Below are positions 19,625 through 47,159 of a stretch of 64,000 bases of DNA, piece after piece. The notes under the pieces are model-generated. The model was not told the DNA's origin and searched no databases. It worked only from the letters and a program-made list of their open reading frames with translations. Origin of the DNA: Arenibacterium halophilum (GTDB taxonomy: Bacteria; Pseudomonadota; Alphaproteobacteria; Rhodobacterales; Rhodobacteraceae). The stretch is from NCBI RefSeq assembly GCF_005938225.1, contig NZ_VCPC01000007.1, positions 1-64,000 of the forward strand, given 5' to 3'. The position numbers and the translations under genes were made by a program. Position 1 is the stretch's first letter; the number at the start of each line of letters is the position of its first letter.

Positions 19625-19629
19625 CTATC

Positions 19630-19658
19630 AAGATAGTTCTCCGGCGAATCACTGTCAA
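19630..19658 (-). promoter_or_regulatory. promoter of the ctRNA
   Basis: TTGACA, 17 bases, TATCTT on the minus strand; a consensus -35 box, as expected for a constitutively strong copy-control RNA. Confidence 0.78.
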
Positions 19659-19724
19659 CAGCAACGCTCCTGAGCGAAAGGGATTCTTTTGCCCTCCATC
19701 AAGCAGAGGAGGCGAGAACTATCC

Positions 19725-21005
19725 ATGAAACATACAGGTTGGCGCAAGCCGACACCGGGTCTTGGCATTGCAGAGCAGCTTGCCCAAGCCGGTGAACAGG
19801 TAGCTGTACCCAAAACACGGGCCTTCGTGGCCGTGAAACGGGTAGGGGCCTACATTGGCCTCAAGGCCGGAGACATGATGCTCCTCGACACGCTCGGGGC
19901 CTTCACCCAGGCCCAGGACTGGGAGGAGGGGCAACGCCCGATCGTATGGGCGTCAAATGCCTATCTGATGGAGCAGACGGGGTTTTCGCTCTCCGCGCTC
20001 AAGCGCCATGCACGGCGCCTGGCCGAGATCGGCGTGATCTCCTTCCAGGACAGCCCCAACGGCAAGCGCTGGGGCCGCAGGGACGCCGAGGGGCGCATCG
20101 TAGAGGCCTATGGCTTCGATCTGTCGCCTCTGTCGGCGCGCGTCGAGGAGTTCGAGGAGCTCCATGCCGAATTGCAGGCCGAACGTGAGCTCTGCCAACG
20201 CCTGAAGCGCCAGATCACCGTGGCACGCCGCATGATCCGCGCGCGGATCGAGGCGGCCGTCAGCAGCGCGCTGCGCGGGCCCTGGACGCAGTTCACTGGG
20301 CTCTTCGAGGAGCTTCTGGACCGGCTTCCGCGACGCCATGAAGCGTCCGAGCAGCTCGCCCGACTGCTGACCTGGTTCAAAGAACTTCAGGAACGCGTCG
20401 AAGCGGCCTATCTCAAGGCAACAGAGAACGTCCAACCTGTGGAAAATACGCTTGAATCCAATGAACAAGTTCCTGAGAAGACTCAAGAAATGAACCCCAG
20501 GGAGGTCATTTCTGACCCCCATATACTAATTACAAACCAACTTGATCCTGTAACTAGTAATTCCTCAGAAAATGAGGAAGTCGCGGCCGTGGTGCCCAAT
20601 GCTCAACCCGAAGATCAGGTTGATAGGGAGCTGGAAGAATGGGTTGCCGACGTGCGCAAGAAGCGCGCCGCGCTGGATCTGCCCACCGTAATGCAGGCCT
20701 GTCCGGAATTCGCGTCCTGGGCCCGCAATATGGGCGGGTTCCTGAAAGATTGGGGCGATCTGCACCGGGTTGCTGGTCAACTGAGGCCGATGATTGGGGT
20801 ATCCGAGCATGCCTGGAACGTGGCGCAGGACCGATTGGGCAAACAGGTGGCGACAGCAGCGCTGGCGCTTGTATTCGAGAAGCATTGCGCAGGCGAAGTT
20901 TCGTCGCCGGGCGGCTATCTGCGCGGTATGGTCGAGAAGGCCGGGGCAGGGGAGCTGCACCTCGAACGCAGCTTCTATGGCAGGCTCAGTGGGCAAGCCG
21001 CGTGA
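19725..21005 (+). CDS. repC: RepC, replication initiator
   Basis: The 426-residue product is the RepC initiator, found only in alphaproteobacterial repABC replicons. The N-terminal part (GWRKPTPGLG, VPKTRAFVAVKRVGAYIGLK, WASNAYLMEQTGFSLSALKRHARRLAE) is the conserved winged-helix DNA-binding domain; the C terminus ends in VSSPGGYLRGMVEKA. RepC acts mainly in cis at an origin within its own gene. The ATG at 19725 has GAGGAGG upstream at a rather long distance; a TTG at 19689 is less likely. Translation is probably controlled by the ctRNA just upstream. Confidence 0.9.
   Translation: MKHTGWRKPTPGLGIAEQLAQAGEQVAVPKTRAFVAVKRVGAYIGLKAGDMMLLDTLGAFTQAQDWEEGQRPIVWASNAYLMEQTGFSLSALKRHARRLAEIGVISFQDSPNGKRWGRRDAEGRIVEAYGFDLSPLSARVEEFEELHAELQAERELCQRLKRQITVARRMIRARIEAAVSSALRGPWTQFTGLFEELLDRLPRRHEASEQLARLLTWFKELQERVEAAYLKATENVQPVENTLESNEQVPEKTQEMNPREVISDPHILITNQLDPVTSNSSENEEVAAVVPNAQPEDQVDRELEEWVADVRKKRAALDLPTVMQACPEFASWARNMGGFLKDWGDLHRVAGQLRPMIGVSEHAWNVAQDRLGKQVATAALALVFEKHCAGEVSSPGGYLRGMVEKAGAGELHLERSFYGRLSGQAA
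20440..20580. other. A+T-rich segment within repC, probable oriV
   Basis: Within an otherwise G+C-rich gene this stretch drops sharply in G+C (for example ATATACTAATTACAAACC at 20521). In studied repABC plasmids the origin lies in the A+T-rich middle of repC. I infer that this is the unwinding region. Confidence 0.6.
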
Positions 21006-21009
21006 GTTG

Positions 21010-21044
21010 TTGATCAAAAAGGGTCGTTGGCATATATTGCCAAC
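21010..21044 (+). promoter_or_regulatory. promoter and operator of the second ParDE operon
   Basis: TTGATC (21010-21015) and TATATT (21033-21038) are 17 bases apart. The -10 box sits inside a perfect inverted repeat, GTTGGCA and TGCCAAC around TATAT (21026-21044). This is the expected layout for autorepression by the ParD dimer. Confidence 0.7.
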
Positions 21045-21060
21045 AAAGGAGAGCCGATAG

Positions 21061-21318
21061 ATGGTTACGCGCAATGTCGTTCTGACCGAAACCCAGGACC
21101 AACTGGTGCAGGCGTTAGTGGCGTCCGGACGTTACCAGAACGTCAGCGAGGCGATGCGCGCGGGGCTTCGTCTGCTGGAGCAAGAAGAAGCTCAACTCGC
21201 CGGTATCCGGCAGGGGTTGTTCGAGGGATTGGCGCAAGCAAAGGCGGGTGAGTTCGCCGAAGGCAGCGGAGAAGACGCGATCCGGCGGGCCTTTCGACAA
21301 GCGCGCGCGACTTCATGA
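21061..21318 (+). CDS. parD: ParD-family antitoxin (second copy)
   Basis: The 85-residue protein has a ribbon-helix-helix N terminus (RNVVLTETQDQLVQALVASGRYQNVSEAMRAGLRLLEQEE) and an acidic C-terminal toxin-binding tail. AAGGAGAG precedes the ATG. The operon promoter is overlapped by a perfect inverted repeat that the protein may bind. The stop overlaps the parE start by four bases. It differs in sequence from the ParD at 7929, so the two modules are probably not cross-neutralising. Confidence 0.88.
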   Translation: MVTRNVVLTETQDQLVQALVASGRYQNVSEAMRAGLRLLEQEEAQLAGIRQGLFEGLAQAKAGEFAEGSGEDAIRRAFRQARATS

Positions 21319-21650
21319 GCCGATCCCTTCGGCTGACGCGCCGCACTGAGGCCAGCTTGGTCGAAATCGCTAAGTGGACGATCGAAAAATTCGGGCTCAA
21401 GCAGGCTGAACTCTATGAGAACGAGGTGCTCACCCGCTGTCAGGCAATCCTGAACGGTCAAGCGCATAGCCGAAGCTGTGCGGTCTTGATCGATGATGCG
21501 GCCGATCTGCGGTTCGCCAGGGCAGGGGAGCATTTCCTGGTCTTCCTGGATCAGCCTGACGAGGTCATCATCGTTGATATCCTGCATTCTCGCAGTGACC
21601 TTCCGCGCCATGTCGCGGCATTGGCAGCCCTGAAAAATGTAGAGCTATAG
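21315..21650 (+). CDS. parE: ParE-family toxin (second copy)
   Basis: The 111-residue product is a ParE/RelE-superfamily toxin: RLTRRTEASLVEIAKWTIEKFGLKQAE, then a core strand and DEVIIVDILHSRSDLPRHV at the C terminus. It pairs with the overlapping upstream antitoxin. The 3' end overlaps the convergent recombinase gene by six bases. Placed next to repC it is well positioned as a plasmid addiction module. Confidence 0.88.
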   Translation: MSRSLRLTRRTEASLVEIAKWTIEKFGLKQAELYENEVLTRCQAILNGQAHSRSCAVLIDDAADLRFARAGEHFLVFLDQPDEVIIVDILHSRSDLPRHVAALAALKNVEL

Positions 21651-22754
21651 CCCGGCGGCCTTGGTCAGGTTCACCCGGAACCGGTCGCGCCGGCGCTGGT
21701 AGCGGCGGGTCATCTCGGCCGAGGCATGCCCAAGCTGCTTCTGAACGTAGCGCTCGTCGACTTCTGCCGAACTGGCGAGCCCGGCGCGAAGCGAGTGGCC
21801 GGAAAACAGCGCCAGGCGTTCCTTTTCTGGCAACTCGGAACGGATGCCGGCATCCAGGACGGTGCGTTTGATCAGGCGCGCGACATGTTTGTCGTTCAGT
21901 CTGGTTTCGGAGGCTCGTTTGCCATCCCGTGAGGTGCCAACGAAGACCGGACCGAAGTCGATCTTCGCAAAGTGCAGCCATTGCTCGAGCGCATGCACGG
22001 GGCAGGTCTGATCCTTGGAGCCGCGGCCGATCTCAACCTCGCGCCAGCCGGTCTTGGCATTAAGCGTGAGGAGGGCACCTTTCTCCATGATCTCGATCCA
22101 GCCACCGGAGTCGGGCGTATCGTCCTTGTGCACGTCGAGACTGACGATTTCCGAGCGGCGCATACCCCCGGCATAGCCGATGAGCAGAATCGCACGATCC
22201 CGTAGCCCGCGCAGGTCGTATGGCAGGGTGGCGACCATCGCGAGGATGTCCTCGGCCAGGATCGCCTCCTTCTGCACCGGCGGGCGCGCATGTTTGCGCT
22301 TGATCCCGGCCAGCACTGTGGCGATGTGCCGGTTCTTGCGATCGAGGGAAAAGCCGCGCTGCGCGTAGTTCCAGGCGAGGCCCGACAGGCGGCGGTCGAT
22401 GGTTGAGACGGAGAGGGCAGGGGAGGGGCCCGACCCGGAGGCAAGATCCGTCAGGTATAGCCCGATCAGCTCAGGCGCGGGGGGCAGGGGCTCTGCGCCT
22501 TTCATCCGGCACCAGCGCGCGAAATGCGCCCAGTCTTTTGCATAGGCCTTCAGCGTGTTGTCCGACGCCGCCGCGCGCGCATAGTCGCGGGCGGTGTCGA
22601 CCAGCTGATCGAGCGTGCCTGAGCCCGCTACAAAGGACGGAAGGCTCAAAGCCTCGCCGTCAGGACGATCTCTCTCGTTGTCCTCATTGGACGAAGGCCC
22701 GATTGGCACGTCTGAGCTCGATTTCTCGGTGTTTTCTGACATGCCGCTGAGCAT
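21645..22754 (-). CDS. tyrosine recombinase / site-specific integrase
   Basis: The protein (369 residues from the ATG at 22754) is a tyrosine recombinase. An N-terminal SAM-like core-binding domain (DNTLKAYAKDWAHFARWC) is followed by the catalytic domain with the arginine in GGMRRSEIVSLD, GHSLRAGLAS (His-x-x-Arg), QLGHAS and the tyrosine in TRRYQRRRDRF. The frame continues upstream to a TTG at 22778, but that start would lie inside an inverted repeat. Next to repC such enzymes often resolve plasmid multimers; integration is an alternative. Confidence 0.87.
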   Translation of the reverse strand: MLSGMSENTEKSSSDVPIGPSSNEDNERDRPDGEALSLPSFVAGSGTLDQLVDTARDYARAAASDNTLKAYAKDWAHFARWCRMKGAEPLPPAPELIGLYLTDLASGSGPSPALSVSTIDRRLSGLAWNYAQRGFSLDRKNRHIATVLAGIKRKHARPPVQKEAILAEDILAMVATLPYDLRGLRDRAILLIGYAGGMRRSEIVSLDVHKDDTPDSGGWIEIMEKGALLTLNAKTGWREVEIGRGSKDQTCPVHALEQWLHFAKIDFGPVFVGTSRDGKRASETRLNDKHVARLIKRTVLDAGIRSELPEKERLALFSGHSLRAGLASSAEVDERYVQKQLGHASAEMTRRYQRRRDRFRVNLTKAAGL

Positions 22755-22762
22755 ATTCTTAT

Positions 22763-22791
22763 ATGTCCGATAATGCAAATTTATTGGACAT
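22763..22791. promoter_or_regulatory. recombination-site-like inverted repeat at the recombinase gene
   Basis: ATGTCCGATAA (22763-22773) and TTATTGGACAT (22781-22791) are inverted repeats matching at 10 of 11 positions around the 7-base TGCAAAT. Arm and spacer lengths are those of tyrosine recombinase core sites (dif, loxP-like). It lies nine bases before the recombinase ATG. An operator for autoregulation is the alternative. Confidence 0.6.
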
Positions 22792-24786: not shown

Positions 24787-24921
24787 TTAATTCTTCTTGT
24801 GCTCGCCAAGACTGGTCAAAGGTTTGCCCTTTGTTAAGTCGGTTGCTGCGACGACCTTTTCCTTCACCTTTTTGGGCTTCTTCGCTTCTCTATTACCGCG
24901 CTTCTTGTCACCTTTTGACAC
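24787..24921 (-). CDS. small lysine-rich protein, 44 aa (paralogue of 46738-46869)
   Basis: From a GTG with a perfect AGGAGG seven bases upstream, the frame encodes a 44-residue, very basic protein beginning MSKGDKKRGNREAKKPKK and ending LTSLGEHKKN. It shares the pattern KG...RG..E.KKPK with the 43-residue protein at 46738-46869. Similar tiny proteins are annotated in alphaproteobacterial genomes without a function. It lies downstream of groEL on the same strand, beyond a GC hairpin. The composition suggests nucleic-acid binding or a disordered protein, which is inference. Confidence 0.75.
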   Translation of the reverse strand: MSKGDKKRGNREAKKPKKVKEKVVAATDLTKGKPLTSLGEHKKN

Positions 24922-24994
24922 GTTAGATCCTCCTGATCCATATTTCTGTTTCTGATGCCGTTCTCGTCTTTGGTCTTCGTCAGATTGCGATTTG

Positions 24995-25029
24995 GCGCCC
25001 CACGGGCCCTGCCCGTTAGAAGTGGGCGC
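24995..25029 (-). terminator. GC hairpin after groEL
   Basis: Nested inverted repeats, GCGCCC...GGGCGC outside and ACGGGC...GCCCGT inside, lie directly after the groEL stop on the minus strand. There is no T-run, so it may stabilise the groESL mRNA or act with Rho. Confidence 0.5.
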
Positions 25030-26667
25030 TCACATCATCCCGCCCATACCACCCATGTCGGACATTTCGGTACCGGCCCCTGCTTTCTCAGGCTTTTGCG
25101 CGACCATCGCTTCGGTCGTGATCAATAGCCCAGCGATCGATGCGGCGTTTTCGAGTGCGATCCGGACGACTTTCGTCGGATCAATGACACCGGCCTTCAG
25201 CATGTCGACGTACTCCTCGGCCTGCGCGTCGAAACCGAAGCTCCGGCTGTCGTTCTCGATGACCTTGCCAACAATGACCGATCCGTCGACCCCGGCATTT
25301 TCGGCAATCTGGCGCAGCGGTGCCTGGATCGCGCGGCGGACGATCTTGATCCCGGCATCTTGGTCGCCGTTCTCGCCCGTCAGCGTCGCCAGCACCTTGC
25401 CAGCGTGAACCAGGGCCACGCCGCCACCGGGCACGACACCTTCCTGAACCGCAGCGCGAGTAGCATTGAGCGCATCGTCGACGCGGTCCTTGCGCTCTTT
25501 CACCTCGATCTCGGTTGCCCCGCCGACCCGGATCACGGCGATTCCTCCGGCAAGCTTGGCCAGCCGTTCCTGCAGCTTCTCCTTGTCGTAGTCCGAAGTG
25601 GTTTCCTCGATCTGCGCGCGAATCTGTGTGACGCGCGCCGCGATCGCATCCTTGTCGCCGGCACCGTCGATGATCGTCGTGTCATCCTTTGTGATCGTGA
25701 CCTTTCTGGCGGACCCGAGCATGTCCATGGTGACATTCTCCAGCTTGGTGCCCATTTCCACGGAAATCACCTGACCGCCCGTCAGCACGGCGATGTCTTC
25801 CATCATCGCCTTGCGGCGATCCCCGAAGCCCGGTGCCTTGACGGCCGCCACCTTCAATCCGCCGCGCAGCTTGTTGACGACCAGCGTCGCCAGCGCCTCG
25901 CCTTCGATATCCTCGGCCACGATCAGCAGTTGCTTCTCGGCCTGGATCACGGCCTCCAGCAACGGCACCATTGAGGCGAGCGAGGTCAACTTCTTCTCGT
26001 GAAGCAGGACGACGCAGTCATCCAGCTCGACGACCATCTTCTGGGCGTTCGTGATGAAGTAGGGACTCAAATAGCCGCGGTCGAACTGCATGCCTTCGAC
26101 CACTTCGGTCTCGGTCTCCAACCCTTTGTTTTCCTCGACGGTGATCACGCCTTCCTTGCCGACCTTGGCCATCGCGTCGGCGATCTGCCGACCGATCTCG
26201 ACTTCGCCATTGGCCGAAATGGCGCCGACCTTGGCAATCTCGTCGCTATCGCCCACAGGTCGGGACATGGTCTTGATCTCGGCCACAACCGCAGCGACGG
26301 CTTTGTCGATGCCGCGCTTGAGATCCATCGGGTTCATGCCGGCCGCAACCGACTTCATGCCTTCCCGGACAATCGCATGGGCGAGTACGGTTGCAGTGGT
26401 GGTTCCGTCGCCGGCCTCGTCGTTCGTACGCTGCGCGACCTCCTTGACCATCTGGGCGCCCATATTCTCGAAATGGTCCGACAGCTCGATCTCCTTTGCG
26501 ACGGTCACACCGTCCTTGGTGATGCGCGGTGCACCCCAGGATTTATCGAGAATGACGTTTCGACCCTTGGGGCCGAGTGTGATTTTGACGGCATTTGCCA
26601 GCGTGTTGATGCCTTTCAGCATTCGGTCGCGGGCATCGGTACTGAAGCGAACTTCCTTGACGGACAT
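25030..26667 (-). CDS. groEL: chaperonin GroEL (60 kDa)
   Basis: The 545-residue product is a full-length group I chaperonin. It has the [29 protein letters not shown]... equatorial domain with the ATP-site [10 protein letters not shown] loop near residue 87, an intact apical domain ([19 protein letters not shown]), the VVPGGGVAL signature near residue 410 and the C-terminal GGMGGMM tail. With GroES it folds cytoplasmic proteins in an ATP-driven cage. It follows groES by 44 bases. As a plasmid copy it is likely additional to a chromosomal groEL, which multi-chaperonin alphaproteobacteria often have. Confidence 0.97.
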
Positions 26668-26711: not shown

Positions 26712-26999
26712 TCAGGCGATCACGCCGAGAATGTCGCTCTCCTTCATGATCAGGAGGTCTTCGCCATCAAGTTTGATCTCTGAGCCGGACCATTTTCCGA
26801 ACAGGATCCGGTCGCCGGCTTTGATGTCCATCGGGATGCGCTCGCCGTCCTCGCGCCTTCCCCCGGCACCAATGGAGACGACTTCGCCTTCTTTAGGCTT
26901 CTCCTTGGCGGTATCGGGAATGATGAGGCCGCCCTTGGTCGTCTCGTCGCCTTCAATGCGGCGAACGAGGACCCGGTCGTGGAGGGGAGTGAATGACAT
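26712..26999 (-). CDS. groES: co-chaperonin GroES (10 kDa)
   Basis: The 95-residue protein has the GroES features: [33 protein letters not shown] with the mobile loop, and a C-terminal [14 protein letters not shown]. The ATG at 26999 has AAGGAG eight bases upstream; the 27 extra upstream codons are not plausible. It forms the lid of the GroEL cage. I found no CIRCE element (HrcA site) upstream, so control may be by another system. Confidence 0.96.
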
Positions 27000-27131: not shown

Positions 27132-27368
27132 TCACGGGCGTCGAACGGAGTTCCCTCCAGCTATGATCGAATTGATCATTTCGGCGACGGCCCGGTGCCT
27201 TTCCATTTCGAGTTCGGTGCCAACGACATTCTCATGGGTCGCCGCGGCGTCGCGAAGAACCCCCACGATCTCGTGCTCCGGCAGCACCCCGCGATCGTTC
27301 AAGGCAAGCAGGAGCGCTTCGCAGATTGACAGGGCGGCCTGGCCTGCATGTTCGCTCGCGGTCGACAT
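27132..27368 (-). CDS. small hypothetical protein, 78 aa
   Basis: I do not recognise a named family. The product is helical (GQAALSICEALLLALNDRGVLPEHEIVGVLRDAAATHE) and reads like a conserved alphaproteobacterial small protein. The ATG at 27368 follows AAGGAAGGGA. It lies upstream of groES on the same strand with a 130-base gap, so it could be part of a groESL transcript. It diverges from the Crp/Fnr gene at 27519. Confidence 0.6.
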   Translation of the reverse strand: MSTASEHAGQAALSICEALLLALNDRGVLPEHEIVGVLRDAAATHENVVGTELEMERHRAVAEMINSIIAGGNSVRRP

Positions 27369-27518: not shown

Positions 27519-28253
27519 ATGACATCAGCCGAACACAGCCCCCTGACACGCAAGCTCTCCGCCTTCGTCGCCCTGTCGGAGGTCGAGCTGGCCGTGCTTG
27601 AACGACTGCATGAGCGTCGTCGCTCATTCGTCGCGGGGCGTGACATGGTGCATCAGGGGCAGTCGGCTCAAGCCGCGTACATTCTGTCGTCGGGTTGGGT
27701 CTGTTCCTACAAGCTCCAGGCCGACGGGACGCGGCAGATCGTGGATTTCCAAGTGCCGGGGGATTTTCTGGGATTGCGCAGCGTCCTGTTGCGCACGTCG
27801 GATCACAGCTTCGAACCCATCGTTGACATCGAGGCCGCCGAAGTGCTGGCGAGCGACCTTATCGATGCCTTCGCGCGGACGCCGCGCCTCGCGACCGCCA
27901 TACTCTGGGCAGCGTCAAGGGACGAAGCGATGGTCGTGGAGCATCTGGTCGGGATCGGTCGGCGTGATGCGGACGCCCGAATGGCGCATTTCCTGCTCGA
28001 ACTGGGATCGAGGCTTGCGCTGGTTGGAATAGGCAGCAGGGAAGGATTCGACTGCCCTCTGACGCAATACCACCTCGCCGATACGCTGGGGTTGAGCGCG
28101 GTCCATGTGAACCGCGTCCTGCGGCAGCTTCGCGAGAGTGGACTGGTCACCTTTCGGGACGGCCGCGTTACGTTTCACGACTATGGCGGGTTGGTGGAAC
28201 TTGCCGAGTTCGATCCGGAATATCTGGACCAGACTGGGCCGCTACTGAAATGA
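27519..28253 (+). CDS. Crp/Fnr-family transcriptional regulator
   Basis: The 244-residue protein has an N-terminal cyclic-nucleotide-binding-like beta-roll (residues about 25-140: MVHQGQSAQAAYILSSGWVCSYK, FQVPGDFLGLRSVLL) and a C-terminal Crp-type helix-turn-helix (about 170-230: LTQYHLADTLGLSAVHVNRVLRQLRESGLVTF). It lacks the N-terminal cysteine cluster of oxygen-sensing FNR. The ATG at 27519 begins the recognisable domain; a longer frame to 27348 would overlap the divergent gene. It may regulate the surrounding stress genes, which is inference from position. Confidence 0.88.
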   Translation: MTSAEHSPLTRKLSAFVALSEVELAVLERLHERRRSFVAGRDMVHQGQSAQAAYILSSGWVCSYKLQADGTRQIVDFQVPGDFLGLRSVLLRTSDHSFEPIVDIEAAEVLASDLIDAFARTPRLATAILWAASRDEAMVVEHLVGIGRRDADARMAHFLLELGSRLALVGIGSREGFDCPLTQYHLADTLGLSAVHVNRVLRQLRESGLVTFRDGRVTFHDYGGLVELAEFDPEYLDQTGPLLK

Positions 28254-35161: not shown

Positions 35162-36943
35162 TCAGAAAGGAAAGAACACCGGAATTGTCAGAACTGCGGC
35201 GGCTCCCACGATGATGTTCATAGGAAGGCCGATCTTAATGAAGTCCGTGAACTTGTAGTTGCCCGCACCATAGACCAGTGTGTTGGTCTGATAGCCGATC
35301 GGGGTCGCGAAGCTTGCGCTCGCTCCGAACATGACTGCGACAACGAAGGGGCGCGGATCAACCCCGATCTGGACCGCCAGTCCGATCGCCAGAGGGGTCA
35401 CGACGACCGCGACCGCACTGTTGGTGACCGCCTCCGTCAAGGTCGAAGCGAGCAGATAGACCGCGGCCAGGGCGATGATCGGGGGCATGTCCGCAAGCGG
35501 CGGGGCAATGGCACCGACGATCAAGGCAATCGCGCCCGAGTGCTGCAGCCCCGCACCGACCACCAGCATCGAGAAGATCAGAACGAGCACGCCCGCGTCG
35601 ATGGAACTCCAGGCCTCATCGTTGTCGATGCAGCGCAGGACGAGGATGAAGGCCACGGCGACGAGGGAAACAAGGCTGATGTCCGCCACACCGATGGCGG
35701 CCAGGGCCACCACCGCAAACAGCGCCGCAAGCGCGAGCGGGGCCTTGCCGCGTCGAAAGGGGCGCCCTCCGGCCATCGTGACGCCAGCCAGGTCCCCGGC
35801 CTCGATCAGGCGGTCGTAGCTTTCGTCGGTTCCCTCCAGTAGCAGTTTGTCCGCTGGTCTGAGGAGCGTGGTCGAGAGGTCGGGGCCAAGGCTTTCCCCA
35901 TGGCGATGTGCGCCCAGGACACGCATGCCATACCTGAACCCGATGGTCAGTTGCGCGATCCGTACACCGCGGCTGCGATGCGATAGTGTGACGATCGCCT
36001 CTGCGACTGTGGTTTCTACGTTTTCCCTGGCTGTCGGTCCTTGACGCAGTCCGACATCCCATCCTTTCCTGTTTCTTAGCGTCAGAAGTTCGGAGGTTCG
36101 GATGACCGCGATCAGCCGGTCTCCAGCGACGAGGATGTGATCGAGCACATCGTCACGCCTAACCTCTGCACCGGAACGTATTCCGACCACCGTCACTCCC
36201 GGACGGGTCAGATCGTCGATATCGCCCAAGGAGTGGCCCAGCCCCCAGTAATCATCCTTTGGGCGCAACTCGGTCAGGAAATCCGCCTCACCTGCCGCAC
36301 CCAGATCCGTCTGATCCTTGCGGTTGGGAAGCAGAAGCGGTCCGAGTAGCAGCAGGGTCAATCCGCCGGTAGCCGCGGCCGCCAGACCGACCGGTGTGAT
36401 TTCCAGAATTGAGAAGGGCGCCAGCCCGATCTCTCTGGCAACGCCATCGACCAGCAGATTGGTCGAGGTTCCGATCAGCGTGCAGGTCCCGCCGAGCACC
36501 GCCATGTAAGAGAGCGGGATCAACAGACGCGTCGCTGCGACGCCGAGGCTTTGGGCCAGTCGTATGGCGACCGGGATCAGTACCAGCACGACAGGTGTGT
36601 TGTTCATGAGCGCCGAGGCCACGAGGGTCGAAGCCAGAAACACGCCGGTAGCCGCAATGGGACGCTGGCCGGCGGCGGCGACGACACGATTTGCCAGTGC
36701 ATCGAGCAGCCCGGTGCGCACGAGGGCGCCGCTGAGGATAAACATCGCGGCGATCGTGATCGGTGCGGGATTCGAAAAAACCGACAGAACAGTGTCTTGA
36801 GGCACCAGTCCAAAAACGACAAACAATGCCGCGACCGCTGCGGCCGTCACCTCGGGGGCGAACCGCTCGTAAAGGAAACCTGCGAAGAGAACCAAGAGAA
36901 GCGCGAGCGCAAGATAAGGCTCATAGGGGATCAGATGTGTCAT
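35162..36943 (-). CDS. SLC13-family permease with two RCK_C domains
   Basis: The 593-residue protein has about twelve membrane helices in two halves (YLALALLLVLFAGFLYERF...; SALMNNTPVVLVLIPVAI with the conserved NNTP loop; later TEAVTNSAVAVVVTPLAI) around a central soluble part of about 150 residues holding two TrkA-C (RCK_C) units (VTVVGIRSGAEVRRDDVLDHIL). This is the DASS/ArsB-like permease type found in CitT/YbhI relatives and in sulfur- or anion-transport genes. Substrate cannot be read from sequence. The ATG at 36943 follows GGAGAA; the open frame upstream is not coding. Confidence 0.85.
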   Translation of the reverse strand: MTHLIPYEPYLALALLLVLFAGFLYERFAPEVTAAAVAALFVVFGLVPQDTVLSVFSNPAPITIAAMFILSGALVRTGLLDALANRVVAAAGQRPIAATGVFLASTLVASALMNNTPVVLVLIPVAIRLAQSLGVAATRLLIPLSYMAVLGGTCTLIGTSTNLLVDGVAREIGLAPFSILEITPVGLAAAATGGLTLLLLGPLLLPNRKDQTDLGAAGEADFLTELRPKDDYWGLGHSLGDIDDLTRPGVTVVGIRSGAEVRRDDVLDHILVAGDRLIAVIRTSELLTLRNRKGWDVGLRQGPTARENVETTVAEAIVTLSHRSRGVRIAQLTIGFRYGMRVLGAHRHGESLGPDLSTTLLRPADKLLLEGTDESYDRLIEAGDLAGVTMAGGRPFRRGKAPLALAALFAVVALAAIGVADISLVSLVAVAFILVLRCIDNDEAWSSIDAGVLVLIFSMLVVGAGLQHSGAIALIVGAIAPPLADMPPIIALAAVYLLASTLTEAVTNSAVAVVVTPLAIGLAVQIGVDPRPFVVAVMFGASASFATPIGYQTNTLVYGAGNYKFTDFIKIGLPMNIIVGAAAVLTIPVFFPF

Positions 36944-37077: not shown

Positions 37078-37950
37078 TCATTGTTTGATTGCCGCGTGGC
37101 GCACCTCTACCGTCAAGCTTAGCAGAGCGTTTCCCGGCCCCGTGAAGCTCCCGGCGACCGGGACGACCTGATGAATGCCGCGGGCTACGGCGACGGGAAT
37201 GAGGTTCTTTGATCCGACGCTTTGGTTCGTCGGGTCGAACGCGACCCACCCGGCACCGGGAATGAAGACTTCGGCCCAAGCATGGGTAGAACCCGCCCCT
37301 TCGGACCCGACAAGGCGCGTTTCGGGATCAAAGAGGTAGCCGGAAACGATGCGGACCCCGAAGCTGAGCATGCGCGCGGCTTCGGCAAACAACACCGCAA
37401 AGTCACGGCATGAGCCCCAACCGCGGGAAAGTGTTTCCAGCGGCGACTGTGTCCCTTCCATCTCTCGCCCCTGATATGCGATCTGCGTCGACACCCCGTT
37501 GGCGATATCCTTGAGCAGAGACAACGTATCCGTGGGGCGCTTAAGGATGAAGGCCTCGACCCAGCTGGAAAACTTGCCGTCAGGGTCGGGATATTGTGGT
37601 GCCGTCAGGGCGCCGAGGTCGGCCCAATCGTCGCCTGAATAAAGGAAGGGAAAGCTGATTGCCTCCGCCGCTATGGCGAATACCGGCCAGACCGCGGCGG
37701 TCAGATCGACCGTTGCACGGCTTTCGATGATCAGATGGTCGCTTGGCTGATTAAACTGTGCCGTGGCGACCGCATTGCCCGCAACGTCATGGGCCCAGGT
37801 GATATCGGCATGGGGCGTGAGGGTGATCTCATGCGACACCAGCCGCAGGTCCCGGGCTTCGCGCGGGCGCAGCATCATCCGATGAGGTCCAAGCAGAACG
37901 GGTTCGCCGTAGCGGTATTCGGTCTTGTGATAGGTCGTCAGCGTGGTCAC
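37078..37950 (-). CDS. transglutaminase family protein
   Basis: The 290-residue protein starts with the bacterial transglutaminase N-terminal beta-sandwich ([38 protein letters not shown]) and contains the catalytic triad: Cys in [12 protein letters not shown], His in [10 protein letters not shown], Asp in WVAFDPTNQ. No signal peptide is present. It is the full-length type, unlike the secreted short form at 31181. It lies between the permease and the glucan synthase on the same strand. Related proteins are protease-like or act on peptides; the substrate is not known. Confidence 0.87.
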
Positions 37951-38022: not shown

Positions 38023-41000
38023 TCAGTCGGGCGGGATCGGGAGCGCAGAACTGTCGATTTCGGCTGCCGTCTCGGTCGACACAAGGGGGCCGAGAGCCAG
38101 GTTCAGGTCGTGAGATCCGCCGTCGAGCGGCAGGAACACCACAGGCCCGGCCATAATGGGGTGGCCATCCAGCGTCGCCCTCGGATGATCCGCTCTCTCG
38201 ATCTGGACCCTGCACGACGTGCCCGCCACCCTCAGCGTCATGGAAAACCCCGGCCAGTCGGGTGGTATGGTGGGGGCGATCCGCAGGTGGTCGCCGGTCC
38301 GGGTCACGCCGAGGATGCCTTCGACGGCCGCGCGGTGCATCCACGCGGCCGAGCCCGTGTACCAGCTCCAGCCGCCGCGTCCGATATGCGGTGCAACGGA
38401 ATAGACATCGGCGGCCACGGCGTAGGGTTCTGTCCTGTAGCGCTGTACGTCCTCAGGCGTCCGGGCGTGATTGATCGGATTGAGCATCGCGAAAAGCTCC
38501 GCAGCGCGCGCTCCATTCCCCAGTTGCGCCCAGGCCAGAATGGCCCACATCGCGGCATGGCTGTACTGCCCGCCATTCTCGCGCAGCCCCGGCGGATAGC
38601 CGGCGATGTAGCCCGGATCCTGCGAGCCCGAGTCGGGACCGATCCCGAAGGGCGGCGTGAACAGCCGCGCCAGATCGTTTTCGCGATCGACCAGAAGGCT
38701 GTCGACGGACTCCATCGCGCGCCGCGCGCGGTCGGGATCTGCCTGTCCGGACAACACCGCCCAGCTTTGCGGGATCGAGTCGATGCAACAGGCCGGAGAG
38801 CCGGCCGCTCCCAGCCATGTTCCGTCATCGAAGGTCGCGCGGCGGTACCAGTCCCCATCCCAGGCATGGGTCTCCATGGAGAGGCGCAGCGTTTCGGCCT
38901 GCTCGCGCCAGCGCTGTGCCCGAGCCGGATCGCGCTTTTCCGCAAGCGGCACGAAGGCGCCGAGCGTCTGCAGCAGCAGCCAGCCCAGCCAGACGCTTTC
39001 GCCGCGGCCGGCGGCGCCGACGCGGTTCATCCCGTCGTTCCAGTCACCACTGCCGATGAGCGGCAGGCCGTGCCGCCCGGTCGGGCTTAGTGCCCGGTCC
39101 AGCCCCAGGGCGCAGTGATCGAAGAGCGACGCGCCGAGGTCCGCATCGTCGGGCAGGAAGAACGCGTCGTGCTCGGTCTCTCCGAGGCGATGTCCTTCGA
39201 GGAAGGGCACCTGTTCGTCCAGTATCGCCCTATCGCCCGTACTCGTCACATAGGCGGCGACAGCATGACCGAGCCAAACGCAATCGTCGGAAATACGCGT
39301 CCGCACCCCCTGGCCGGTGTGCGGCAGCCACCAGTGCTGCACATCGCCTTCCGGGAACTGGCGGGCGGCGACCCGCAGCAGATGCGCGCGGGTGCGGTCG
39401 GGGCGCGTCAGCATGAAGGCCATGTTGTCCTGCAGCTGGTCGCGGAACCCGTAGGCGCCGCTTGCCTGGTAGAAGGCCGCACGCGCCTCGATCCGGCAGG
39501 CGAGCGCCTGATAGGGCAGCCAGCCGTTGACCATGATATCCATCGCCCGGTCCGGCGTCTCGATCCGGAGATCGCCCAGCGTGTCGTCCCAATAGGTCTG
39601 TACTGCGGCCAGTTCGGCCTGCATGTCGGCGGACCGCAGCTTTCTCAGCAGGGGCACGACCGCCGCCGCGTCTGCGCATTGGCCGAGGAGATGGACGAGC
39701 TCAATGCTCTCGCCAGGGGCCAGGGTCAGGGTCTTCATCATCGCGAGGCAGGGATCGAGCCCCGCTCCGACCCGCCCCGACATGACGGCGCCCCGGCGTA
39801 GTGCGGCGGGATCGGCATGGCTGCCGCCCGAGCCCAGAAATTCGGTGCGATCTCCTGTCCAGGCCTCGGCCGGACCGGAAGGCGCGCTGAGCGCCGCGAA
39901 CATCACCCGGCCGGGAAAGGCGGTGTTCCACGGACTCTGAACCAGAAGCGCGCCGGTTTCCGGCTCGTGCGAGGTCACGAGGAACGGGGCCGAGGCGGCG
40001 CGCGATTGACCCATGACGGGTTCGCTATAGGCGACGACGCTCAACCTCCGGGGCTGCGTCCCGTTATTGCGCAGGAACAGCCGCGAGACCCTGACCGGAT
40101 CGGCGCGCGGCACGAACTGGACCAATTCGCAGTCGATGCCATTCGCCTGGTGCTCGAACCGGCTGTAGCCGAAGCCGTGGCGCACGATGTGCGGACCGGC
40201 CCCTGCAGAAAGCGGCAGAGGGCGCGCAGTCGGTGAAAACAACACGCCGCTGTCGTCGTCTCGGATGTAGATTGCCTCGCCCGGAGGGTCTGCCACAGCA
40301 TCATTGGACCAGGGCGTTAGCTGGTTGTCGCGGCTGTTCTCGGCCCAGGTAAAACCGCTGCCGCTGGCCGACACCTGGAATCCGAAGTCCGGATTGGCGA
40401 TCACGTTGATCCATGGGGCAGGCGTGCTGTCCGGTGGGCCAAGGCGGATGACATATTCTCGTCCCTCCCGGTCGAACCCGCCTGTGCCATTGTAGAACTC
40501 GAGGTTCGGGCGGTCGGATGGCGGCCTGGCCTCGTCCCGCTGCGGGGCGGTTCTGTCACGTCTGTTCGCGCGCAGTCGGAGCGCATTGGCGGGTTGCGGG
40601 GTGGGGCCAATCTGTCGCGTGTCTGCGGTCATGGTGTCAGCCGTAACAGGATCGGCAAGAAGGGCGTCGAGCTGTTCGCCGATCATGCCGCGCCGGGCCA
40701 GCATCACAACCCGCGCCGCAGCCAGGAGAAGCGCTCGCGTATCTGGTGCGATCAGGTCGGAGCGCAGCGCAAACACGGCGCCCCGGGCCGGTCGCGTGTC
40801 GTCGCCGGGACGGGAATGGCTGCTGCGCAAGGCGATGTCGATGGCGGTCTGCAGATCCTTGACATAGGAGGCCGGGTGCTCGTTGAGGATCACCAGATCG
40901 ACCGCAAGCTGCCTTCCCAGCCAGTACTCATGGGCCTGTAGCAAGGCACGAACCTGTCCGATATCGGCGGGATCGTCGATGCGCAGCACCACGATCGGCA

Positions 41001-44000
41001 AATCGCCGGAAATCGCGAGCGGCCAAAGGCCGGATTGACGTCCGGCGCCCCGTAACAAGGTGGCAGACGGCAGGCGGAATCGGCGATCATGATAGAGGAC
41101 AGGGGCGGCGAGGCGTTGGAAGTCGGCGGCTTCGGTCGGCGAGATGCCTAGATGGCGCAGTTGCACCTGAGCCTGGGTCCAGGCCAGGGTCCGTGCGCGG
41201 TCATAGGCGCTGCGGTCGTGATGCCGGTCGATCAGATCCATCAGCGCTTCGCGGCTGTCGGCAGCCACCATCCAGACCAGGATCCGTGCGGTGCGCCCAG
41301 GCGCGATCAGGAGCCGGTTGCGCAGTGCGAAAACCGGATCCAACACCGTGCCCGTGGTTCCGGCGAGAGGCGCCGGATCGGTTATGGCGCGCGGCTGGGC
41401 CTGGTCATGATCGCGGCCGAAAGCGCCGTTGCGATCACTGTCATATTGCAGCGGCGCGACGGTCGTCCCCTCGACCACGGAGAACTGCGCCACCCAGATT
41501 TCCGGTTCCTCCGGGCTGCGCCGCCTGCGCCATGCAATCAACGCGCCGTATTCGGGCAGGAACTCGGTCTGAACGAACATCCGCGAGAAGGCCGGGTGCG
41601 CCTGCTCGGAGGCCGGATCCGCCAGCGTCAATTCGACGTAGGAGGTTACATCCAGTTCCCGGGGTTTGCGCCCGCCATTGGTCACCGACAGGCGTCGCAC
41701 CTCCGCATCCGCCTCGCCCGAGACGAGAATATCCAGCACCGCTTCGAGCTGGCCGGTCCGGGCGGTGAAGGTCGCGTGATCCTCGAAGAACTGCACGTCC
41801 TGCGCGTCGGCGGTATCAGGCGCGCCAGGTCCGAACCTCTGGTCAGAGCCGTCCGAGAGATTCCGGATGTGGAGGATGGCGCCATGCGGATCCCGGGTCG
41901 CGTCCTCGCGCCAGCGGGTGAGCGCAATATCGCCCCAGCGGCTGTAACTCCCGCCCGTGGCGGTCAGCATAACCGCGTAGCGTCCATTCGACATGAGATG
42001 GGTGACCGGGGGGCCGCCCGGGCGGCCGGCAATCCGGCGGCCCCGGTCCGCTTCGGACGGCGTCGGACCGCCGGGCCTGGCGTCCTCAAGCGGCGGCAAG
42101 GCGCGGTCGATATCGCGCGGCAGCCGTTCCTGGAGCAGCAGTTCGCTGGCATGGATCATCGGTTCATGGTGGAACCTCTGGCGCATCAGGCCGCCGGTCA
42201 GGGCGTTGGCGATGGCCACGATGGTCATCCCCTGATGATGGGCCATGTAGCTTTGCACCACGGCAACGCGGCGGCCCGGCAGCACACGGTCGGGGGTGAA
42301 GTCGAGTGCTTCATAGAAGCCACAGAGCCCAAGCCCACCTATAGCCTCCAGGTCCTCGTAGTTCCGCCGTGCAGCACCGGGATTCAGCATCGCGGCCAGC
42401 CCGGTCGCATAGGGCGCGATCACCAGATCCCCGGCAAGTCCGCGCTTGAGCCCAAGCCCGGGCACACCGAAGGTGGAATACTGGTAGTTGAAATCCACAT
42501 CCCGTGCGTTGAAGCCGGATTCCGAAATGCCCCAAGGGACGCCTTGCGCCCGTCCGTAGGCGATCTGTCTCTCGACGACCAGTCGACAGGTGTGACCCAG
42601 CTGACCGCCTTCGGGTTCTTGCATCACCAGTCCAGGCATCAGGTATTCGAACATCGAGCCGGCCCAGGAGACGAGAACGGCGCCGCCACGGGTTGCGGTG
42701 ACCGTCCGCCCCAGACGGAACCAGTGACGTAGCGGCAGATCCTGTTTGGCGACGGCGAAGAGACTGGCCAGACGCGCCTCGGAGGCCAGGAGGTCATAGC
42801 AGGACGGATCGAGACTGTTCTCGTGGACCGAGTAGCCGATGGACAGCAGCTTGCGCTCGGGGTCGAGCAGGAAGCCGAAATCCATGTCCACTGCGAGCCC
42901 GCGGGCCTGCGCCCCCAGCCGACGCAATTCCGCGGCCAGAGCGGCATGGTCGGCCTCAGTTGACGCGGCATCTGTCGCGGCTTCGGCCAAGCCGGCGCGA
43001 AGCAAGGACAGCCATCGGGGCGCATGCGGGGGCATAGCCGCCGGAGGCGGAGTGGCGTGTTCGGCCTTGGCCGCCAGGCGTTGCAGGAAGGGCCAGTTCA
43101 CTTCAGCCTGTTTCAGGCCATCGCGCAGCGATCCGATCGCCTCGGAGCAGGAGTCACTGAGCGGGGACATTAACCGCTCTGCGTCACGCTCCACCAGGTC
43201 AAGAAGATCGGTCAGCCCCTGAGATCTCTGACGTGGCGTCGCGCCGGAATGCGCGGCCCAGTCCTCGCAGGCGTTGGCCAGTGCGATCAGGTGGCCGGCC
43301 AGATTGCCGCTGTCCACCGACGAGACATAGGGCGGGTCGAGAACCCTGCCGTCTCGCGTGTCGTACCAGTTGTAGAAATGCCCCTTTACCCGCGGCAGCG
43401 CTTGCATCGTGCCAAGGGTCGCGGCAATCCGGCTGGCCGCCTGACGCAGGCCGATCCAGCCGAAATCGCGGGCTGTGACAGTGGACAGAAGATAAAGCCC
43501 CATATTTGTGGGCGAAGTTCTGTGCGCGAGCGTCGCGTGTGGCTGCTCCTGAAAGTTGTCGGGGGGCAGATGGCTGTCTTCTGGCGTGACGAAGGTCTCG
43601 AAATAGTGCCATGTCCTGCGTGCGATCAGGCGCAGTTCCTGGGCGTCCTGCGGGGTAAGGGCGGCGTCGGGTTGTGCGCGGGAAGGCTGACTGACCCGAA
43701 AGGCGATGAGCGGCGCGGCAAGCCAGAGGGCTGCAAAGGGCAGGATCAGGGGGAGCGCACCGGGGGCGGCCAAGCCGGCCAGGCCTGTGGTCGACAGTCC
43801 CAGCAGGATCCCCGGCGCCATGGCACGGGAAAATCCCCGCAGATCGGGGCGCGGAGCGGCCGAGACCGAGGCCGCCGTGGTCCATTCCAGGAGATGCCGC
43901 CGTGAAACCGTCAATCGCCAGAGTGTGCGGGCGATGGCATCGAGCGCGCGCCAGGCGGCGTCGGCGAGAAAGCTGACCGCCAGCCCGGTTTGCAGCACGG

Positions 44001-46641
44001 CAAGCGACAGGTCTTCCTGCATCAGGCGCAGGTGGTTGCCCATGTGAAGGCGGCGCTGATGCGGAACTGCGGAAAGGGCTGCGTGCAGGAAAGCGGGCAG
44101 GCTCATGGCGACCAGCGCAAGAGCCGTCGCCAGCAAGGCCGCCGGGCCAGGCAGAAGCCACCCCAGTGTCAACAGGACAAGCGTGGCCGGGGCCAACAAC
44201 GAGCGGCGCAACGTGTCCAGCACCTTGACCCGTCCCAGCGCGCCCAGCCCGCCTTCCCGGCCAAGCCAGGGCAGGAGTTGCCAGTCGCCGCGACACCAGC
44301 GATGGATGCGCCGCGCAGCGAGGTCCTGTCGGTCGGGGAAGGACTCGATTAGTTCCACGTCCGAGACGAGCCCGGCCCGGGCGAAGATGCCTTCAAGCAG
44401 GTCATGGCTGAGAAGGGCGTTTTCGGGCACGCGCCCGGCCATCGCCGCCTGGAAGACATCGACGTCGTAGATGCCCTTGCCGGTAAAGGAGCCCTCGCCG
44501 AAGAGATCCTGATAGACGTCCGACGCAGCAGCAGCATATGGATCCATCCCGCCCGGACCCGAGGTCGCGCGCTGAAATGCCGTGCCGTGCCGTTCCGGTG
44601 TCAGGGCGGGGGTGATCCTCGGCTGTAGAATGGCGTGACCGGCACTGACCCGGCTGAGGGCCGTATCGAAGATCGGCTGGTTCAGCGGGTGCGCCATCTT
44701 GCCGATCAGCCGCAAGGCCGCGTCACGCGGCATCCGGGTGTCGGAATCGAGCGTCAGGACGTAGCGCACCCCGGGGGGCACGGCCGGCACATGACCGTCT
44801 GCCGTGCGGTATTCGGTATCATCAGCACCGCGCAACAGACGGTTGAGTTCGTGCAGCTTGCCGCGCTTGCGTTCCCATCCCATCCAAATCTGTTCGGCGG
44901 CGTTGTAACGGCGGTCACGATGCAGGTGCAGAAAGCGGGCACCGGCGGGACCCGCGCCGTAGATCCGGTTCAGTCGGGCAATCTCGTCGTCGATCAAGGC
45001 AACCAGCGGCGCATCCTCCGGCATGTGCTGTCTGGGGGCGTCCAGCCCATCGGTCAGGATGGCAAAGGTCACGTCGCCTTGGGCGCCCGAGAGATAATGA
45101 ACCTCCAGCCCTTCGAGCTGTTCGCTCAGGTCTGCGCCATTTGTCAGCATTGTCGGAACAACCACGAGCGTGCGCAGTGAAGACGGCACGCCGCTCTCAA
45201 GCGCCAGTCCCGGCAGTGCCGTGGCAGGTACGGTCCAGGCCACCATGCGATCAACGATAAGTTGAGCGACGGCACTGGCCGGGATGACCGCTGCGAGAAA
45301 CCAGAGCGCGAGCACAGTCCACGACGCGGATGGGCCGGAAAGGGCCACCAGACTCCATGCGCTCAGCGCGAGCAGCCCAAGAGTGACACAAAGAATGCTG
45401 CCAAGGTATCCTGCGAGACCGGGTCGGACCTGCGGGCGATGCCGTCCCCTGTAACGATAGCCGATCTGGCGCTCGAAGGCCGCCCGGCCCTCGGCGAGGA
45501 GATGCCAGCCCGGATCGCTCCTGCGCAGGATTTCCGCCTCGGAAATCAGGTCGCCATCCGCTTCCGGCGCAGCCCCCGCCGTCGCCAGCACCTGCTCGGC
45601 CAGATCCAATTCGCTGTAGTCACTGTGACGAGCGAGATCCTCGAGGGCATCGCGATAGAGGTTGCGGCTGGCGAAATCCATCGCGGAAAATCCCGGATGC
45701 TCCCGCAGCTTCGCATCGACCAGGCTGACACTTTCAAAGAGCTCTGGCCAGTCCGTCTCTGCGATCGTGCGCAGGCTGGTGATGACGTTTCGAACCGTGA
45801 CGTTCGAGGCGCCCTGACGCTCCTGTGCATGCCGGACCGCCAGGTCGACATTCGACCCCTGCTTGGCCAGCCGATCCTCCAGCCAGCCGATGGCCGGGGT
45901 CGTGACAGGGTCGCAGTCGCGTAGCCGTTTCGCCAACTGGGCGGCAAAGATCTCAGAAAGTGGCTCGGACGCGCCAATATCTGCAGGCATCCCGGTCTGG
46001 TCGGCCTCCAGGAGCCGATCTGCAAGGGTATCCGCCGAGAGGCGCATCCTGTGACCGAAGGTGATCTGGTCGGCCAACCGCCGCAGGTTTTCCAGAAGGA
46101 CGAGGCGGAGCGTTATCGGAACCGCCCAGAGCTCCCCTATGGTCAGGGGCTGGAACTGATGATAGGCGCGCAGAAAGCGGGACAGTGCGGGGGCGTCGAG
46201 ATGGCTGTCCGTATGGGCGACATAGGCCCAGATCAATTCGAACACTCGCGGATAGCCGTGAAACGGCCCTTGGGCGAGTTTCGGCAGAAGCCTGTAGTAG
46301 CTGGGCGGCAAATCCGTACGGCAGTCGCGCACCTGCGCCTCGACCCTGTGAAAATTGTCCACCAGCCATTGGGCGGCGGGGACAATAGGTTTTCCCGACG
46401 CCAACTCTGAGAGACAGGCCTTGCGAGTGGCCCTCAGAGCCGTCGCATTGTCGTCCAGTCGCTGGCGCAGTGATGCGACACGCGGTGAAGAGGCGCAGAT
46501 ACGCTGCACCTCGGCCAGGCTGGCGGCGTGTTGCTCCAGCCTTTCGATACCGAAAAGCTCCGCGCGCACCGGCGCGACGCTCTTCCAGGGTGAGGTGCGG
46601 GTGCCGCGGAGGTTGAGTCGAGGTAGCGTCCAGGCCCTCAT
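38023..46641 (-). CDS. ndvB: cyclic beta-1,2-glucan synthase (NdvB/ChvB-like), 2872 aa
   Basis: This giant protein has the full architecture of cyclic beta-glucan synthases. It has an N-terminal helical part, membrane helices around residues 410-460, a family GT84 glycosyltransferase domain with TLDSDTRMPRDA near 630 and RRIHRWCRGDW, further membrane helices about 780-1010, then a glucoamylase-like part and a C-terminal GH94 phosphorylase-like domain with SGDWNDGMNRVG near 2530. It makes periplasmic cyclic glucans from UDP-glucose at the inner membrane, important for osmotic adaptation and host interaction. The ATG at 46641 has AGGA upstream. The frame is intact throughout. Confidence 0.9.
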   Translation of the reverse strand: MRAWTLPRLNLRGTRTSPWKSVAPVRAELFGIERLEQHAASLAEVQRICASSPRVASLRQRLDDNATALRATRKACLSELASGKPIVPAAQWLVDNFHRVEAQVRDCRTDLPPSYYRLLPKLAQGPFHGYPRVFELIWAYVAHTDSHLDAPALSRFLRAYHQFQPLTIGELWAVPITLRLVLLENLRRLADQITFGHRMRLSADTLADRLLEADQTGMPADIGASEPLSEIFAAQLAKRLRDCDPVTTPAIGWLEDRLAKQGSNVDLAVRHAQERQGASNVTVRNVITSLRTIAETDWPELFESVSLVDAKLREHPGFSAMDFASRNLYRDALEDLARHSDYSELDLAEQVLATAGAAPEADGDLISEAEILRRSDPGWHLLAEGRAAFERQIGYRYRGRHRPQVRPGLAGYLGSILCVTLGLLALSAWSLVALSGPSASWTVLALWFLAAVIPASAVAQLIVDRMVAWTVPATALPGLALESGVPSSLRTLVVVPTMLTNGADLSEQLEGLEVHYLSGAQGDVTFAILTDGLDAPRQHMPEDAPLVALIDDEIARLNRIYGAGPAGARFLHLHRDRRYNAAEQIWMGWERKRGKLHELNRLLRGADDTEYRTADGHVPAVPPGVRYVLTLDSDTRMPRDAALRLIGKMAHPLNQPIFDTALSRVSAGHAILQPRITPALTPERHGTAFQRATSGPGGMDPYAAAASDVYQDLFGEGSFTGKGIYDVDVFQAAMAGRVPENALLSHDLLEGIFARAGLVSDVELIESFPDRQDLAARRIHRWCRGDWQLLPWLGREGGLGALGRVKVLDTLRRSLLAPATLVLLTLGWLLPGPAALLATALALVAMSLPAFLHAALSAVPHQRRLHMGNHLRLMQEDLSLAVLQTGLAVSFLADAAWRALDAIARTLWRLTVSRRHLLEWTTAASVSAAPRPDLRGFSRAMAPGILLGLSTTGLAGLAAPGALPLILPFAALWLAAPLIAFRVSQPSRAQPDAALTPQDAQELRLIARRTWHYFETFVTPEDSHLPPDNFQEQPHATLAHRTSPTNMGLYLLSTVTARDFGWIGLRQAASRIAATLGTMQALPRVKGHFYNWYDTRDGRVLDPPYVSSVDSGNLAGHLIALANACEDWAAHSGATPRQRSQGLTDLLDLVERDAERLMSPLSDSCSEAIGSLRDGLKQAEVNWPFLQRLAAKAEHATPPPAAMPPHAPRWLSLLRAGLAEAATDAASTEADHAALAAELRRLGAQARGLAVDMDFGFLLDPERKLLSIGYSVHENSLDPSCYDLLASEARLASLFAVAKQDLPLRHWFRLGRTVTATRGGAVLVSWAGSMFEYLMPGLVMQEPEGGQLGHTCRLVVERQIAYGRAQGVPWGISESGFNARDVDFNYQYSTFGVPGLGLKRGLAGDLVIAPYATGLAAMLNPGAARRNYEDLEAIGGLGLCGFYEALDFTPDRVLPGRRVAVVQSYMAHHQGMTIVAIANALTGGLMRQRFHHEPMIHASELLLQERLPRDIDRALPPLEDARPGGPTPSEADRGRRIAGRPGGPPVTHLMSNGRYAVMLTATGGSYSRWGDIALTRWREDATRDPHGAILHIRNLSDGSDQRFGPGAPDTADAQDVQFFEDHATFTARTGQLEAVLDILVSGEADAEVRRLSVTNGGRKPRELDVTSYVELTLADPASEQAHPAFSRMFVQTEFLPEYGALIAWRRRRSPEEPEIWVAQFSVVEGTTVAPLQYDSDRNGAFGRDHDQAQPRAITDPAPLAGTTGTVLDPVFALRNRLLIAPGRTARILVWMVAADSREALMDLIDRHHDRSAYDRARTLAWTQAQVQLRHLGISPTEAADFQRLAAPVLYHDRRFRLPSATLLRGAGRQSGLWPLAISGDLPIVVLRIDDPADIGQVRALLQAHEYWLGRQLAVDLVILNEHPASYVKDLQTAIDIALRSSHSRPGDDTRPARGAVFALRSDLIAPDTRALLLAAARVVMLARRGMIGEQLDALLADPVTADTMTADTRQIGPTPQPANALRLRANRRDRTAPQRDEARPPSDRPNLEFYNGTGGFDREGREYVIRLGPPDSTPAPWINVIANPDFGFQVSASGSGFTWAENSRDNQLTPWSNDAVADPPGEAIYIRDDDSGVLFSPTARPLPLSAGAGPHIVRHGFGYSRFEHQANGIDCELVQFVPRADPVRVSRLFLRNNGTQPRRLSVVAYSEPVMGQSRAASAPFLVTSHEPETGALLVQSPWNTAFPGRVMFAALSAPSGPAEAWTGDRTEFLGSGGSHADPAALRRGAVMSGRVGAGLDPCLAMMKTLTLAPGESIELVHLLGQCADAAAVVPLLRKLRSADMQAELAAVQTYWDDTLGDLRIETPDRAMDIMVNGWLPYQALACRIEARAAFYQASGAYGFRDQLQDNMAFMLTRPDRTRAHLLRVAARQFPEGDVQHWWLPHTGQGVRTRISDDCVWLGHAVAAYVTSTGDRAILDEQVPFLEGHRLGETEHDAFFLPDDADLGASLFDHCALGLDRALSPTGRHGLPLIGSGDWNDGMNRVGAAGRGESVWLGWLLLQTLGAFVPLAEKRDPARAQRWREQAETLRLSMETHAWDGDWYRRATFDDGTWLGAAGSPACCIDSIPQSWAVLSGQADPDRARRAMESVDSLLVDRENDLARLFTPPFGIGPDSGSQDPGYIAGYPPGLRENGGQYSHAAMWAILAWAQLGNGARAAELFAMLNPINHARTPEDVQRYRTEPYAVAADVYSVAPHIGRGGWSWYTGSAAWMHRAAVEGILGVTRTGDHLRIAPTIPPDWPGFSMTLRVAGTSCRVQIERADHPRATLDGHPIMAGPVVFLPLDGGSHDLNLALGPLVSTETAAEIDSSALPIPPD

Positions 46642-46737
46642 GCTAGAATCCTGTCGGCAAGCGGGCAATTTTTCCGACTTGCCGCATGGATGCACGCTCT
46701 GCGGCCAGGCCCAGGCGATCACACAAGAAGAGTTGGG

Positions 46738-46869: not shown

Positions 46870-47159
46870 GGTGTTCTCCTAAGTGGCTTGTGTACGTGGA
46901 AAATTCTCTCGCCTCGATGAGGCGAAGACCGCATGCGTCGCGGGCTAGGATTCCGAGGGCCACGCAGGTCCGCATCGGTGCAATTTGAGAGTATCGCCGA
47001 GGTCGGCCGCTTCCATGCTGATCCAGATCAGCGTTCAACGAGGAGTTTTTCTGCTGCGTGTTCCTCTCGCAGCGAGACCGGTTTTCAGTCGTGCCGAATT
47101 ACCGGGGTGGGGAAATCGGCCTGGCGCATGTCGCCTCCGGCGGACGGTCGTCACGATCA
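46870..47159. other. non-coding region and decayed sequence
   Basis: No supported gene. A hairpin CGCCTCGATGAGGCG is at about 46909. The part above 47100 may be the decayed C terminus of the interrupted AbiEii-like gene, but I cannot read a frame with confidence. Confidence 0.35.

Follow-up and report, generated by a model that had tools for sequence, protein, structure and literature searches.

Two old paralogs in a plasmid island belong to an uncharacterised family of lysine-rich small proteins centred on Alphaproteobacteria

Sra (bS22/RpsV) of Escherichia coli is a small basic protein that associates with the ribosome in stationary phase. As for the larger genes considered here, the chvB gene of pKLC102 is already known (PMC3731849). 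Literature searches on the island described below, or on multiple groESL copies in this group, returned nothing on the island, and a paper on the small proteome of Sinorhizobium (PMC10117765) makes no mention of groEL. Here we describe two lysine-rich small open reading frames (smORFs), P0002 and P0003, found in a plasmid island within a window of 64,000 nucleotides, the whole stretch of DNA that was analysed. Both are preceded by a strong Shine-Dalgarno sequence:

24921-24787, minus strand: P0002, lysine-rich small protein of 44 aa, groEL-linked subfamily, GTG start
24929..24934, minus strand: Shine-Dalgarno sequence of P0002, AGGAGG, 7 nt 5' of the GTG
46869-46738, minus strand: P0003, lysine-rich small protein of 43 aa, NdvB-linked subfamily, ATG start
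46876..46880, minus strand: Shine-Dalgarno sequence of P0003, AGGAG, 6 nt 5' of the ATG

The translations are VSKGDKKRGNREAKKPKKVKEKVVAATDLTKGKPLTSLGEHKKN (P0002, 44 aa) and MAKGKSRRGREDKKPKQKKAEPVPAPSFSKGLTIDTKPKGKKA (P0003, 43 aa), and the motif M-x-KG...RG-x-RE-x-KKPK is common to both. An earlier note on this DNA had described two small genes with strong ribosome-binding sites and a common pattern, lying on the same strand at the two ends of a block; we found the open reading frames, the Shine-Dalgarno sites and the motif, and could add the strand, which is minus for both. Within the window the placing also holds, with P0002 after groEL and P0003 before a glucan synthase gene. Among the 395 start-to-stop frames of 40-50 aa in the window, only P0002 and P0003 have 12 or more lysines, and they are likewise the only ones to contain RE.KKPK; neither kind of ORF occurred in 20 simulated windows (Markov, same dinucleotide frequencies).

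To the left of the island lies a plasmid backbone with a ParA-like AAA protein and repABC-like replication genes (window positions 17095-22778; repB and repC were assigned by eye), together with a ParD/ParE pair at 21061-21650 and a tyrosine recombinase on the minus strand at 21645-22778. Just outside the right end, an AbiEii toxin/AbiEi antitoxin pair (48394-50140, minus strand; Pfam PF08843 and PF11459) adjoins an IS240-type transposase at 47564-48247. Further on, genes for a TerB_N/TerB/TerB_C protein and, after it, a BrxC/BrxD-type ATPase (51376-55204, plus strand) resemble the beginning of an operon of the defence type.

In a pairwise alignment P0002 and P0003 are identical at 15 of 32 positions (single-comparison E 4e-6), and the P0003 sequence alone, used as a query, reached P0002 at only E 0.19. 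A family profile built from 15 sequences matched both over the whole protein in a search of their own genome, with E 5.1e-20 for P0003 and 1.9e-18 for P0002, each of which was itself a row of the profile. This homology by a single profile bears out the earlier proposal that the two are paralogous; the same search found no third copy in the genome up to E 1.

Several observations indicate that these frames are genes. Relatives of P0003 found by tblastn against plasmids are on those of Paracoccus zhejiangensis (98% identity), Alloyangia pacifica (90%) and Roseibium aggregatum (79%), and those of P0002 are on plasmids of Phaeobacter porticola (86%), Roseovarius indicus (79%) and Paracoccus aminovorans (77%). 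Across 32 P0002-type genes, mean pN was 0.06 and mean pS 0.41 (ratio of sums 0.15); most of these genes were fetched by a sequence pattern, and we therefore calculated the ratio separately for codons outside the pattern, where it was 0.21. Four P0003-type genes gave 0.20. A Shine-Dalgarno-like sequence precedes 105 of 108 family ORFs, a generous count in that short cores such as GGAG were accepted. The earlier note had named a lack of reading-frame conservation in related genomes as grounds for refutation; the frames are conserved under purifying selection. Because pN/pS is low in both types, we conclude from the sequence comparisons that P0002 and P0003 are conserved protein-coding genes.

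The two are old paralogs of one uncharacterised small-protein family (about 40-50 aa), defined here by the KG..RG.RE.KKPK box and centred on Alphaproteobacteria. Profile searches found 55 places in 49 of the 198 genomes of a Rhodobacterales-family set, and matches in 62 of 398 Pseudomonadota genomes, 57 of them Alphaproteobacteria. A pattern scan of species genomes listed at least 69 more loci, and the family is larger than that list. Members have a conserved N-terminal box, K-G-x(1-3)-R-[GS]-[NG]-[RK]-E-x-[KR]-K-P-K, followed by a variable lysine-rich tail. In a varied alignment K2, R10, E11, K14, P15 and K16 are invariant; RE.KKPK was the selection criterion for the pattern-fetched rows, which conserves this core by construction, and the rows from tblastn and the profile survey were not so selected.

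Databases hold these proteins without a name. Neither Pfam nor NCBIfam returned a match up to E 10 for P0002 and P0003, or up to E 0.1 for 24 members. The profile matched no PDB chain up to E 10, and therefore no member is present among ribosome structures under a recognisable sequence. Annotated members in RefSeq are called 'hypothetical protein', a Roseibium copy carries no annotation at all, and the motif strings appear in none of the papers searched. WP_096740492.1, WP_268238483.1, WP_096804700.1, WP_343504257.1 and WP_013368425.1 belong to the same family, all without an assigned family or function. Like P0002, the RefSeq members on Phaeobacter and Roseovarius plasmids lie 3' of groEL; like P0003, those on Paracoccus, Alloyangia and Ketogulonicigenium plasmids lie 5' of a glucan-synthase gene. 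Close relatives adjoin extra chaperonin genes or a gene for a cyclic-glucan synthase in many bacteria from the sea and from soil. Because the family is widespread and under selection, its lack of a Pfam or NCBIfam entry is a gap in annotation.

What might such proteins do? P0002 and P0003 have net charges of +10 and +11, a pI over 10, and only 5-7 V/I/L/M/F residues among 43-44, leaving no hydrophobic core. A charge-hydropathy plot places both far on the disordered side, and AlphaFold2, run with 24 aligned members, predicted no secondary structure (mean pLDDT 64, pTM 0.12). They are thus very likely disordered polycations, in agreement with the earlier description of them as unstructured. Given the charge, predicted disorder and scarcity of hydrophobic residues, polyanion binding is the most likely activity of the family, and composition makes nucleic-acid binding plausible. 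Our best guess, held at somewhat less than even odds, is that P0002 and P0003 bind RNA, the ribosome or DNA under stress. The explanation we favour, at a probability of roughly 0.4, is that they are old paralogs that bind to RNA as free polycations under stress, with ribosomal RNA or the ribosome as the most plausible target. P0002 would be translated from a strong ribosome-binding site of its own on the message of an accessory chaperonin, and the message of a glucan synthase would yield P0003, both when the stress genes of the plasmid are expressed. The free protein would then bind through the KG..RG.RE.KKPK box and the lysine tail, and the bound protein may protect RNA or the ribosome, or tune translation, under stress. 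RNA or the ribosome seems to us a likelier target than DNA, given a short, sharp conserved box and a setting in protein quality control.

It is the neighbouring genes that suggest induction by stress. No EcfG promoters were found 5' of family members, and RpoH-like promoters were found 5' of 4 of 101 (0.15 expected) in one of three patterns, a count that a second scoring did not confirm. None was found 5' of groES or ORF85 of the island.

Two other readings start from the same composition. If P0002 and P0003 were small histone-like polycations, the KKPK unit and lysine-rich tail would coat plasmid or chromosomal DNA under stress. The net charge suits such a role, and lysine/proline-rich composition resembles the tails of H1-type histones; however, the proteins carry only one or a few KKPK units with no repeat, and an N-terminal box with an invariant glutamate suggests a more specific contact, so that we consider this role unlikely. 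The proteins could instead be disordered protectants that shield proteins or membranes from aggregation and have no nucleic-acid target, which would fit the predicted disorder and the neighbouring genes, given that GroESL, HflK/HflC and glucan synthase serve protein quality or the envelope. A protectant role is nonetheless improbable: a pure protectant would not need so sharply conserved a box, and 43 aa is short.

A further alternative comes from the genes next to P0002, which form a module in the order Crp, then ORF85-groES-groEL-smORF, with a spacer of about 106 nt before the smORF:

24922..25029, minus strand: groEL-P0002 spacer, 108 nt
25030..26667, minus strand: groEL, accessory copy, 77% identical to the genome's other GroEL
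26712..26999, minus strand: groES
27132..27368, minus strand: ORF85, small conserved protein of 78 aa, no Pfam match
27522..28253, plus strand: Crp/Fnr-type regulator, divergent from ORF85, start codon not fixed

Across 37 fetched loci (30 distinct spacers), the gap between groEL and the smORF is 91-118 nt, mostly 105-110. Single spacer sequences fold, but a hairpin as a conserved RNA element was rejected (RNAalifold -1.3 kcal/mol, 4 pairs), and covariation in the named helix was no higher than in shuffles; a hairpin in the groEL-P0002 spacer is possible, without covariation support.

ORF85, as uncharacterised as the smORF, is nearly always first in the groESL-smORF row. In relatives it lies directly 5' of groES-groEL-smORF or of the smORF alone, the latter at no fewer than six island loci with no groESL between (L032, L051, L069, L082, L093, L117). 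Three Ruegeria loci (L086, L090, L091) have an intact ORF85-Crp pair 3' of groEL, in inverted order, and a second, broken or diverged ORF85 5' of groEL. A remote likeness to ORF85 in a gene adjoining a Pelagibacterium family member (L094) was not confirmed by profile search.

We searched the 198 genomes with the island GroEL and compared the best 16 loci with the next 14; these loci are related by descent, and the counts are not independent. A family member sits beside groESL for 15 of the 16 GroELs most like that of the island: the smORF is 3' of groEL in 11 (the island's own, G024, G172, G070, G136, G004, G075, G044, G164, G106 and G051) and 5' of groES in four (G049, G094, G140 and, as a broken copy, G013), leaving G101 with no member nearby. 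None of the next 14 fetched loci, whose GroELs are about 78-80% identical and housekeeping-like, has an adjacent member. In the family tree each of the two orders has its own place, so the link to groEL arose at least twice or was reshuffled. Across the Rhodobacterales-family survey, 15 of 55 members are beside groEL and 40 are away from it. Other neighbours of the family vary, and include RF3, a MatE transporter, a GMC oxidoreductase, a murein endopeptidase and HNH. Thus the tie to chaperonin genes that the earlier note had suggested looking for in other genomes is real and recurrent among the closest GroELs but is not general, and the family does not strictly co-occur with groESL.

These counts bear on whether P0002 is a disordered accessory factor of the plasmid GroESL, acting as adaptor, regulator or obligate client. 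Many loci keep it at almost the same distance 3' of groEL, another subclade has the second order smORF-groES-groEL (L157-L159, with a broken copy at L156), and the 14 next-ranked, housekeeping-like groEL loci that were fetched have no family member beside them, all of which speaks for such a partnership. However, most members live away from groEL, the ORF85-smORF pair persists where groESL is missing, P0003 accompanies a glucan synthase, and the sequence lacks a mobile loop of the GroES kind and is very poor in hydrophobic residues. Partnership with the chaperonin is possible, at low odds, but would leave the wider family unexplained. Because most members are away from groEL, we conclude that the protein is not chaperonin-specific; since their neighbours also vary, its function is probably general, and the many members beside unrelated genes fit a target that is general and not a single partner enzyme.

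P0003 lies at the edge of a different module:

35162..36916, minus strand: SLC13-type permease
37078..37950, minus strand: transglutaminase-like protein
38023..46722, minus strand: large NdvB/ChvB-like cyclic-glucan synthase with Glycoamylase and GH94 domains, likely ATG at about 46641

The P0003 type is found 5' of NdvB/ChvB-like genes on plasmids of P. zhejiangensis (two plasmids), Alloyangia, Roseibium and Ketogulonicigenium, likewise in Devosia, and 0.7 kb 5' of the glucan-synthase gene in Ancylobacter. It is absent 5' of nine other plasmid glucan synthases examined, including that of pKLC102, and 5' of the 12 glucan-synthase genes in other genomes of the family survey. Glucan synthases of this type occur in 116 plasmid records, including Pantoea, Klebsiella, Escherichia and Pseudomonas. 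A Crp/Fnr regulator lies close to the glucan synthase on pKLC102 (L190) and on a Paraburkholderia plasmid, as in the island.

A maximum-likelihood tree of 98 rows and 44 columns, in which many forks are open, places P0003 in a supported clade of NdvB-linked plasmid proteins (99/97) and P0002 among groEL-linked proteins. That P0002 and P0003 are a duplication bounding the island, as the ends of a composite element, is hardly credible and is refuted despite their position at the block's two ends, since those ends share no repeats of at least 24 nt, the tree separates the two types, and each module occurs without the other on other plasmids. The 'two ends' are thus the outer edges of two separate modules that happen to lie oppositely, and their symmetric placing, remarked on in the earlier note, has no special significance for the island.

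Binding of RNA or the ribosome under stress, our preferred reading, could be extended to a scheme in which mobile accessory groESL operons have taken up members of a disordered alphaproteobacterial family more than once, in two gene orders, and the protein works there with the accessory chaperonin; that the whole of this scheme would hold seems rather unlikely. The groESL linkage offers a concrete setting in which to ask what the third, small gene in a mobile chaperonin operon does.

Among known ribosome-associated proteins, bTHX begins with MGKGD..RRG, which resembles the MGKGD..RGN of some family members; the rest of bTHX is absent from them. We rejected kinship, because a pairwise E of 0.059 that rests on low-complexity letters is not evidence of homology. 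Sra of E. coli is similar to P0002 and P0003 in size, charge and stress-linked setting; the likeness would be one of kind and not of descent. If ribosome binding proves true, a small stress factor from Alphaproteobacteria would join a field that rests mostly on work in enterobacteria.
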